64,000 nt of DNA from Ligilactobacillus faecis (lineage in GTDB: Bacteria; Bacillota; Bacilli; Lactobacillales; Lactobacillaceae). Of this stretch, positions 12,371 to 36,798 are shown piece by piece. The stretch spans positions 2,089,501 through 2,153,500 of the forward strand of contig NZ_CP123639.1 of the NCBI RefSeq assembly GCF_029889745.1. Reading direction: 5' to 3'. Under the pieces are notes generated by a model. That model made no database searches and was not told the DNA's origin. It saw only the letters and a list, made by a program, of their open reading frames with translations. Numbering within the stretch: position 1 is the stretch's first letter; each line of letters begins with the position of its first letter. The position numbers and the translations under genes are program-made.

Positions 12371-12399
12371 AAACGTTTGCCTGGAATAGACAAACGTTT
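12371..12399. repeat. 29-bp target duplication (left) = complete terminator hairpin
   Basis: Arms AAACGTTTG and CAAACGTTT enclose the loop CCTGGAATAGA. The same 29 bases occur at 13918-13946 on the other side of the IS1182-family copy. Before insertion this was the single terminator downstream of the minus-strand glnQ gene. Both copies keep a stem followed by a T run. Confidence 0.92.
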
Positions 12400-12410
12400 C
12401 AGAACGTAGA

Positions 12411-12446
12411 CAAACTCTATTCAAATCGGATAGAGTTTGTTTTTTT
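12411..12446 (+). terminator. Inward-facing terminator at left end of IS copy 1
   Basis: CAAACTCTAT and ATAGAGTTTG form a perfect 10-bp stem with a 9-nt loop, followed by seven T on the plus strand. It would stop transcription entering the element from the left, antisense to the transposase. Confidence 0.75.
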
Positions 12447-13236
12447 ATGTATTTTTATAACTATATACTTTGAAATATACGAATATAACAGGGTTTTTCC
12501 CCAGTATTTTTACCAATTTTTTTAGATTTAGGCACGCAAATATCAACCCAACTTTAGCTAGAATTTTATCAATTCCTACTTCTCGGGCGTATCTCAAGTT
12601 GTGATATTCTTTTGCCGAACCAAAATTTCTTTCGATCGTCTCCTTTCGCGCTTCATACTTTAATTTTGAGCCAGTTTGATGCCTGATATCCTCACATTTT
12701 TCCATACTATCTTGCCAAACATGACGAGCGATAACTCTTTGATGATTTTTACTTTGTGTACATTTGTGCAGTAAAGGACATTTTTCACAGATTGTAGGAT
12801 CACTTTTATATTCACGATAACCACTTCGATTAGTTGTGGAGTACATTAAGATTTGATCGCCAGGACATAAATAACAATCATAATATTCATCATAAACAAA
12901 ATCTTTGGGTCTAAGCGTACCAACTTTGCCCCTTGGGCGTTTATAAGGAAGAATGGGAATTATGCCTTGAGATAGTAAAAAGTGTGCGATCGTGGGTGTT
13001 TTATAGCCAGAATCAGCGATAATATATTGTGGGTCGTACTTCCGTACTTTTTCAAATATTTCAGGAAAAAGTTGCGTATCATGGATATTTCCCGCACCGA
13101 CCACATAAGCTAAGAGCCACCCATTTTTATCACAGGCAGCTTGAACGTTATAGGCAAAAACCTGTTTGTGTTCACCCTTATGAAACCATCCACTATCAGG
13201 ATCAGTTTTAGATATTTTTACTTGTCTAGTTTTTTT
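12445..13236 (-). CDS. IS1182-family transposase, C-terminal half (frame -1), copy 1
   Basis: This frame opens within the A9 run at 13230-13238 and encodes the second half of the DDE transposase, through ISKTDPDSGWFHKGEHKQ, the second catalytic Asp in IIADSGYKTP and the Glu-bearing segment RKETIERNFGSAKEY. It lacks its own convincing start and ribosome binding site at the junction. It is therefore most likely translated only as part of a fusion with the upstream half after -1 slippage. Alone it lacks the first catalytic Asp. Confidence 0.85.
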   Translation of the reverse strand, partial: KKTRQVKISKTDPDSGWFHKGEHKQVFAYNVQAACDKNGWLLAYVVGAGNIHDTQLFPEIFEKVRKYDPQYIIADSGYKTPTIAHFLLSQGIIPILPYKRPRGKVGTLRPKDFVYDEYYDCYLCPGDQILMYSTTNRSGYREYKSDPTICEKCPLLHKCTQSKNHQRVIARHVWQDSMEKCEDIRHQTGSKLKYEARKETIERNFGSAKEYHNLRYAREVGIDKILAKVGLIFACLNLKKLVKILGKNPVIFVYFKVYSYKNT

Positions 13237-13832
13237 TTAGGTTTTTCTTCTTTTAAGGGTTTCTTTTGATGTTTAGCTCTATCTACATTTATTTCTTTTT
13301 CGAGATCTTCACTCATAAATTTTGACTTAGTTTCAATAACTTCAGTAGTATATTTACGGCTGTTAGCAGCAGCTTTCAAATGAGTTCCATCAATAAAGAT
13401 ATCAGTTGTGTCGATAAGATCATTTTCTAAACAGAGTTTCAAAATATGAGCAAAAATAGCTTCTATTACATGGCTTTCAGCAAATCTTCTTTTATAATTT
13501 TTACCGTAGGTAGAGAAATGAGGAACAGGATCATTTAAACCTAGTCCTAGAAACCATCGATAAGCGACATTAACTTGAATTTCTTTGATCGTTTGACGCA
13601 TAGAACGAATACCAAATAGATTTTGGATCAAAGGAATCTTTATGAGTAGTACAGGGTCAAGACTAGGACGACCATTATTTTTACAATAGGAATCTTCGAC
13701 AAGATCATAAATAAAAGAGAAATCAATAATTTGATCAATTTTACGGAGTAAATGATCTTTTGGGACCAAATCATCTAGAGAAGTACGAGCATATTCACAG
13801 CGTTTGAGATTGGGATCACTTTTGTGAAGCAT
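13218..13832 (-). CDS. IS1182-family transposase, N-terminal half (frame 0), copy 1
   Basis: The start ATG at 13832 has GGAGG 8 nt upstream. The half contains the DUF772-like N-terminal region (NGRPSLDPVLLIKIPLIQNL) and the first catalytic Asp of the DDE triad (DIFIDGTHLKAAAN). A lysine-rich tail then ends at TAA just after AAA AAA AAA. The other two catalytic residues lie in the next frame, so this 204-residue product cannot be catalytic. It could be an inhibitor or simply the unshifted by-product. The same split is present in the other copy. Confidence 0.85.
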   Translation of the reverse strand: MLHKSDPNLKRCEYARTSLDDLVPKDHLLRKIDQIIDFSFIYDLVEDSYCKNNGRPSLDPVLLIKIPLIQNLFGIRSMRQTIKEIQVNVAYRWFLGLGLNDPVPHFSTYGKNYKRRFAESHVIEAIFAHILKLCLENDLIDTTDIFIDGTHLKAAANSRKYTTEVIETKSKFMSEDLEKEINVDRAKHQKKPLKEEKPKKKLDK

Positions 13833-13868
13833 AATGAGCACCTCCGTAACCGTTTTCTTTAATTATAC

Positions 13869-13902
13869 AAAAAAAAGTCACCAGAGCACATACTCTGATG
13901 AC
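13869..13902 (-). terminator. Inward-facing terminator at right end of IS copy 1
   Basis: Read on the minus strand, GTCATCAGAG and CTCTGGTGAC form a 10-bp stem with one mismatch, followed by eight T. It lies between the right end and the transposase start, so outside transcription from that side would stop before the gene. A TATAAT directly follows and may be the transposase -10. Confidence 0.75.
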
Positions 13903-13917
13903 TTAGTCTACATTCTG

Positions 13918-13946
13918 AAACGTTTGCCTGGAATAGACAAACGTTT
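13918..13946. repeat. 29-bp target duplication (right) = complete terminator hairpin
   Basis: This is an exact copy of 12371-12399. It is still followed on the minus strand by its own fold and on the plus strand by seven T. It now serves as the terminator nearest to glnQ. Confidence 0.92.
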
Positions 13947-35226: not shown

Positions 35227-35253
35227 AAACGAGTAGCAAAGAACTACTCGTTT
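35227..35253. repeat. 27-bp target duplication (left) = complete terminator hairpin
   Basis: Arms AAACGAGTAG and CTACTCGTTT enclose loop CAAAGAA; the same 27 bases recur at 36772-36798. The ancestral hairpin lay between the convergent pepD and IscA-like genes. Confidence 0.92.
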
Positions 35254-36771: not shown

Positions 36772-36798
36772 AAACGAGTAGCAAAGAACTACTCGTTT
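36772..36798. repeat. 27-bp target duplication (right) = complete terminator hairpin
   Basis: This is an exact copy of 35227-35253, immediately followed by the IscA-like gene end at 36803 on the minus strand. Confidence 0.92.

Follow-up and report, generated by a model that had tools for sequence, protein, structure and literature searches.

Results

Copy 1 and its flanking hairpins

The window, by which we mean the whole analysed stretch of 64,000 nt from Ligilactobacillus faecis, carries an insertion sequence of the IS1182 family, copy 1, between uvrC (TIGR00194, 610.6 bits) and a gene for a GlnQ-like transporter ATPase (best model NF007027, 309.7 bits, below its cut-off of 379). The ends of this copy are CAGAACGTAGAC and, on the opposite strand, CAGAATGTAGAC, and terminal inverted repeats are present as in the IS1182 family; a consensus terminal repeat, CAGANTGTAGACAAA, served to locate the element ends in relatives. 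The features of the locus are as follows:

12371..12399, unstranded: left copy of the 29-nt target hairpin, with an A run (a T run on the minus strand) solely on its left
12400..13917, unstranded: IS1182-family insertion sequence, copy 1, 1518 bp; ends by comparing 17 copies, both coding halves matching NF033551
12400..12415, plus strand: left terminal repeat CAGAACGTAGACAAAC, from the window sequence and the copy comparison
12408..12442, plus strand: inward-facing terminator-like hairpin at the left end, from terminator prediction and from presence at both ends in relatives
13875..13904, minus strand: inward-facing terminator-like hairpin at the right end, on the same grounds
13902..13917, minus strand: right terminal repeat CAGAATGTAGACTAAG, from the window sequence and the copy comparison
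13918..13946, unstranded: right copy of the 29-nt target hairpin, with a T run solely on its right

Direct comparison of the flanks demonstrates that the 29 nt at 12371-12399 and the 29 nt at 13918-13946 are identical. The repeated unit is AAACGTTTGCCTGGAATAGACAAACGTTT, each copy of which is able to form a stem-loop with the outer stem AAACGTTTG/CAAACGTTT, and the left copy is terminator-like on the minus strand (12400-12370). The first-pass annotation had described 29-bp identical flanks that are a complete stem-loop, and this is exact. It had also included the T run in the duplication; three T are indeed duplicated with the stem-loop, but the rest of the run is unduplicated and lies on the outer side only.

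The transposase and its split frame

The element encodes its transposase in two overlapping frames on the minus strand:

13218..13841, minus strand: transposase part A, DUF772, with the presumed first catalytic D, from domain match and alignments
13230..13238, minus strand: nine-A run on the coding strand, meeting point of both frames and presumed slippage or frameshift site
12445..13236, minus strand: transposase part B, DDE_Tnp_1_6, in the -1 frame, with the presumed second D and the E, from domain match and alignments

The two halves match complementary parts of NF033551, the IS1182 model, part A with 197.7 bits over model positions 8-216 and part B with 238.8 bits over positions 244-487, as befits an IS1182-type transposase. 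Owing to the split, neither half attains the 270-bit cut-off of this model, whereas L026, an unsplit relative, scores 443.4 bits. The two-frame transposase is found in 17 of 17 copies of the source genome, including copies 98% identical to that of the window, with the nine-A run at the frame junction in every one, and seven unsplit relatives from plasmids and a phage have a single frame of about 443-504 codons. Copy L015 differs from the commonest copy by 14 synonymous and 6 nonsynonymous codons in part A; in part B there are 2 changes of each kind. The split at the nine-A run looks like a programmed frame change, and a fused product made through it would probably be needed, since, as we read the alignments, the catalytic residues are divided, the first D being in part A and the other two, D and E, in part B. 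The candidate triad, D148, D273 and E400 (L051 numbering), is invariant or nearly so in alignment A2, and its members sit in a strand, a strand end and a helix of a predicted structure whose mean pLDDT is only 61. The best fold match of this model is piggyBac (E 1.4e-3), from which no reading is drawn, and a sequence search of the PDB gave no match.

Hairpin duplications in the source genome

The 2.38 Mb source genome was searched for further copies, and the 40 scored among 71 first-look candidates comprise at least 17 full-length copies and one 45-nt piece. The latter (L018, G000:C1:497677-497721) has 87% identity to element positions 1466-1510 at the right end, the rest of the element being absent. 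An exact direct repeat of 21-34 nt surrounds all 17 full copies; the 17 repeats differ in sequence, and each of them folds as a stem-loop with its foot at the element or one base from it. The second copy in the window is arranged in the same manner:

35227..35253, unstranded: left 27-nt hairpin copy of copy 2, exact duplication, stem-loop
35254..36771, unstranded: copy 2 of the same element, by copy comparison
36772..36798, unstranded: right 27-nt hairpin copy of copy 2, exact duplication, stem-loop

None of the 17 insertions lies within an ORF of at least 100 aa, and at 14 of them the hairpin starts no more than 10 nt from a stop codon. A search of Rfam gave no match, and the left end of the element, sought in viral contigs, gave no copy.

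Insertion sites across the clade

Relatives were collected from plasmid and phage records, from a scan of genome contigs (the best 80 of 450 loci used, 10 of the 80 without an end), from an order-wide search, with relatives in 51 of 395 genomes and 17 of 80 genera, and from stretches of multi-copy genomes; 2 of 60 further loci lacked a pair of ends. The surveyed clade covers Lactobacillales, Staphylococcaceae, Bacillus and Clostridia. In nearly all rows the terminal repeat, independently of the flanks, fixed the ends; for L193 and L027 they were located by a search in which repeats were weighed as well, and the ends of L028 were not found. The 152 rows were reduced to 124 distinct sites by dropping 14 with a flank shorter than 60 nt, 6 with an uncertain end (among them L026, where a 16-nt repeat is present) and 8 repeated sites.

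An exact duplication of at least 15 nt, and up to 57 nt, is present at 91 of the 124 distinct sites. A first, looser hairpin test was satisfied at 612 of 3750 random positions and was discarded; the strict test used instead asks for at least eight Watson-Crick pairs, at most one mismatch and a foot within 1 nt. By this measure a hairpin stands on both sides at 82 of the 91 duplicated sites, on one side at 1 (L133) and on neither at 8, and random positions of the same loci show a strict foot at 50 of 4960 and feet on both sides at 1 of 4960. Folding leads to a single stem-loop closing no more than 2 nt from both ends for 88 of 90 distinct duplications; the two that do not fold end to end are L133 and L157, where one cut lies 5 nt inside the stem and the duplicated hairpin is short of part of one arm. 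Hairpin duplications of 20-34 nt also flank every one of 12 copies from six more genomes, whose ends were placed by copy comparison. In genome G380 one element, in copies of equal length (L167-L170), has duplications of 29, 35, 40 and 57 nt, each a hairpin. The same insertion is shared by G377 and by Secundilactobacillus kimchicus (locus L070), both Lactobacillaceae.

The proposal made from the first reading of copy 1, that the element targets hairpins, is thus borne out by the 17 source-genome copies, by the 91 duplicated sites and by the 88 end-to-end stem-loops; a majority of other copies lying outside hairpins, or having short unrelated duplications, was not what their flanks gave. The avoidance of ORFs in the source genome is also what one would see if insertion were random and only those copies sitting in terminators survived selection. 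Such selection, however, cannot fix the ends of a duplication at the feet of a stem, nor can it tie the length of the duplication to the hairpin, and we regard this explanation as extremely improbable.

The 33 sites with no exact duplication are flanked by two different hairpins (18), by a hairpin on one side (13) or by none (2). Two of them, L183 and L184 (G323:C2 near 800060 and 812059), are about 12 kb apart and in opposite orientation, and their hairpins are reciprocally swapped and inverted, as an inversion between copies would leave them; this pair bears the trace of an inversion between the two copies. For the other 31 sites we assume recombination or decay. At L149, where the 11-nt duplication forms no fold, the element may have inserted outside a hairpin.

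Stem pairing and sequence at the feet

The stems were analysed in 89 distinct duplications without offset, 16-57 nt long (median 25). Stem pairs 2-10 covary, being complementary far above shuffles and in all four pair types: complementarity is seen for pair 5 in 87 of 89 duplications, again with the four types all represented (at most 38 in shuffles), for pair 8 in 82 of 86 (at most 36) and for pair 10 in 55 of 62 (at most 31). The first stem pair is a fixed A-T without covariation (75 of 89 against a shuffle mean of 73.1). Position +1 is A in 80 of 89 and position -1 is A in 77 of 89, and the feet follow a conserved pattern, A^A R R ... Y Y T^T. The fixed first pair and the A at +1 and -1 therefore indicate a sequence preference at the feet, which stands alongside a pairing requirement inside the stem. 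The palindrome extends at least one pair past the cut in 71 of 89 duplications, so that the cut is near, and not at, the end of pairing.

The conserved feet could be explained if the transposase reads a sequence dyad, two A^A-purine half-sites, in ordinary duplex DNA with no extrusion. Yet pairs 4-10 have no fixed sequence and are still complementary in 55-87 of 62-89 duplications (shuffle maxima 31-43), and the half-sites can be anything from 16 to 57 nt apart. Recognition of a plain dyad would call for neither the pairing nor such variation, and this possibility is a very slight one. Since the inner pairs covary and constancy is confined to the A^A...T^T of the feet, the target is structural, and duplication length seems to depend on target shape instead of on a fixed spacing.

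Terminators and insulation of the neighbouring genes

The outer sides of the 91 duplicated sites are T-rich (at least 4 T in 8) on both sides at 65, on one side at 23 and on neither at 3. Three duplications (L090, L168 and L170; 3 of 89 distinct duplications) have a U-tract on neither outer side, which suggests that what is targeted is hairpin DNA and not terminators specifically. Terminators would be the main targets because they are the commonest hairpins with A-rich feet. A preferred orientation of the element relative to the T-rich or the A-rich side was tried and rejected (16, 18 and 14 ties of 48).

Because the U-tract lies outside the duplication, a hairpin copy can end only transcription leaving the element. 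Inward terminator-like hairpins are found at both ends of 100 of 108 distinct elements, and in the control 312 of 2160 inner stretches match. At copy 1 the glnQ-like gene is read leftward and its transcription now meets the hairpin followed by CAGAAT, the U-tract being gone; the next candidate terminator in this direction is the element's own, at 13904-13875. The inward terminators of the element could make up for the lost U-tract.

These results refine what had been said about termination at this locus. Equating the duplication with a functional terminator is right in that the whole hairpin is duplicated and that such hairpins are mostly terminators; the U-tract is missing from the duplicated unit. 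The claim that glnQ and uvrC stay insulated would apply, through the outer U-tracts, to transcription leaving the element. Leftward transcription from the glnQ-like gene meets a hairpin that has no U-tract; any insulation remaining on this side would depend on the element's inward terminator-like hairpin at 13904-13875. For the host, the cost of insertion would be low.

Orthologous places lacking the element

We compared three congeneric relatives (G017, G003 and G004), which have 79-83% identity over the genes neighbouring copy 1. In all three uvrC and glnQ are adjacent and the element is absent. By the strict test the gap between these genes holds one hairpin in G003, and one strong (16 pairs) and one weak (8 pairs) hairpin in G017; G004 has one similar in sequence to that of the window, and folding adds a second, imperfect one nearer glnQ. 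At the place of L014 all three relatives keep both flanks, and the 56-100 nt that separate these contain one strong hairpin. The place of copy 2 is comparable on the left side only, because the right flank is not adjacent in the relatives; on that side each of the three has one strong hairpin after the left gene. Except in G004 at uvrC-glnQ, the hairpins of the relatives differ in sequence from those beside the element. Hairpins thus stand at these places without the element, in other species and so not as exact empty copies.

Place in the IS1182 family

A phylum-wide search with NF033551 gave matches at E<=1e-60 in 82 of 398 genomes. Two copies each were taken from 18 genomes, together with three of a second IS1182 subgroup in the source genome, leaving out L269, which is partnerless; the 12 copies from six genomes described above belong to this sample, and the other 27 have no duplication of at least 15 nt. 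Of the 49 transposases in a phylogenetic tree, 30 are from duplicators (the window and 29 loci), picked for hairpin duplication and not randomly; these form one clade with support 1.0, and non-duplicating elements are located elsewhere. Nearest outside this clade are L194 (ISCfr1), with a 6-nt repeat, and L196, with no repeat. ISCfr1-like and other IS1182 members (L194-L196, L198 and L199) have IS1182-family transposases like that of the window but, unlike the duplicators, show repeats of 4-6 nt or none, each judged from a single copy.

PMC4923244 and PMC5678879 describe IS1272 and TnSha1 as inserting into hairpins, often terminators, with no consensus in primary sequence, and IS1272 as removing all or part of the hairpin and leaving no duplication. 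These elements share with the element of the window the transposase family and the hairpin target; whereas IS1272 deletes the hairpin, the window element and its clade duplicate it whole, at all 17 copies of the source genome and at 91 of the 124 surveyed sites. The IS1272-type transposase L197 is outside the duplicator clade.

The second IS1182 subgroup of the source genome (L230, L231 and L232; G000:C1 near 588457, 1767670 and 398004) is of the IS1272 kind, with the terminal repeat GGGGCTGGGAAAAAAC and no long duplication. The idea that IS1272-like copies leave complementary stem stubs was unsupported: among 19 copies, the 15 with located ends gave 4.47 of 8 complementary positions beside the element, against 4.45 for shuffled pairs. 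L231 is flanked by AAAAAAC and GTTTTTT, and hairpins stand at the same place in its relatives L279 and L280, which is only suggestive of stem stubs; the place of L230 in relatives showed no clear hairpin.

Discussion

In DDE elements the length of the target duplication is normally constant. Within the clade described here it varies inside a single genome, from 21 to 34 nt in the source genome and from 29 to 57 nt in G380, and follows the fold of the target. We consider it likely that the DDE transposase of the duplicator clade targets hairpin DNA by way of cruciform extrusion, attack at the 5' feet and a gap repair that duplicates the hairpin. In this mechanism the palindrome would extrude as a cruciform rather than as a hairpin of one strand, each strand would be attacked at the 5' foot of its hairpin by one of the two 3' ends of the element, usually between two A, and gap repair would then copy the whole hairpin to both sides. 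Because the feet meet at the junction whatever the length of the stem, the cutting geometry need not change even though the duplication tracks the hairpin (16-57 nt).

The folded target might instead be a hairpin on one displaced strand, at a replication fork or in a transcription bubble, the other strand being cut opposite the same feet. The duplications show that the palindrome matters and are silent on whether one or both strands fold, and most hairpins directly follow a gene (at 14 of 17 sites the stop codon is at most 10 nt away), a position at which transcription unwinds the DNA. However, the two feet are cut symmetrically, one at A^A and the other at T^T, as would suit a symmetric junction, and no excess of either element orientation accompanies the T-rich or A-rich side (16, 18 and 14 ties). 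A one-strand target therefore seems unlikely to us. Returning to the cruciform, a more specific form of the proposal, which we advance tentatively and with rather less assurance, is that the target is the DNA four-way junction itself. Transfer at both 5' feet would then allow any length of duplication, a switch from the 5' to the 3' feet inside one family would turn duplication into replacement, and the inward terminators of the element would fit as replacing the termination that the insertion splits.

Some parts of this picture have been drawn before. In PMC5678879 (Wan 2017), pathway b of Fig. 13 is a hypothetical attack on the 5' feet of a cruciform, in which the whole stem-loop is duplicated. 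That pathway predicts the duplication seen here, a whole stem-loop with a length following the stem; there it is a drawn alternative, whereas in the duplicator clade it corresponds to the regular outcome. That certain IS1182 members have palindromic targets is credited to Siguier and co-workers by both PMC4923244 and PMC5678879, and the latter states that this account gives no detailed data. PMC12056078 (2025) describes these elements as little known and names as possibilities that they duplicate, delete or recognise structured DNA. A survey of titles and abstract openings, outside most subscription papers and ISfinder, showed none with whole-hairpin duplication as the rule of a clade. Structure-directed insertion is thus known from IS1272; whole-hairpin duplication as a regular outcome would be new, and fits a pathway that had only been drawn.

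Other mobile elements have related targets and use other chemistry or belong to other families than the window element: group IIC introns target terminators, and IS elements such as IS1397 target extragenic palindromes. Neither group is known to make variable-length duplications of a whole hairpin. For some IS1182 members ISfinder reportedly lists long direct repeats.

The duplicator clade offers a directly testable case of a transposase reading the shape of DNA, and together with IS1272 it provides two opposite outcomes in one family for comparison. Insertion at hairpins explains how such elements can multiply without breaking genes. Furthermore, the insertions may record hairpins that really form in living cells.
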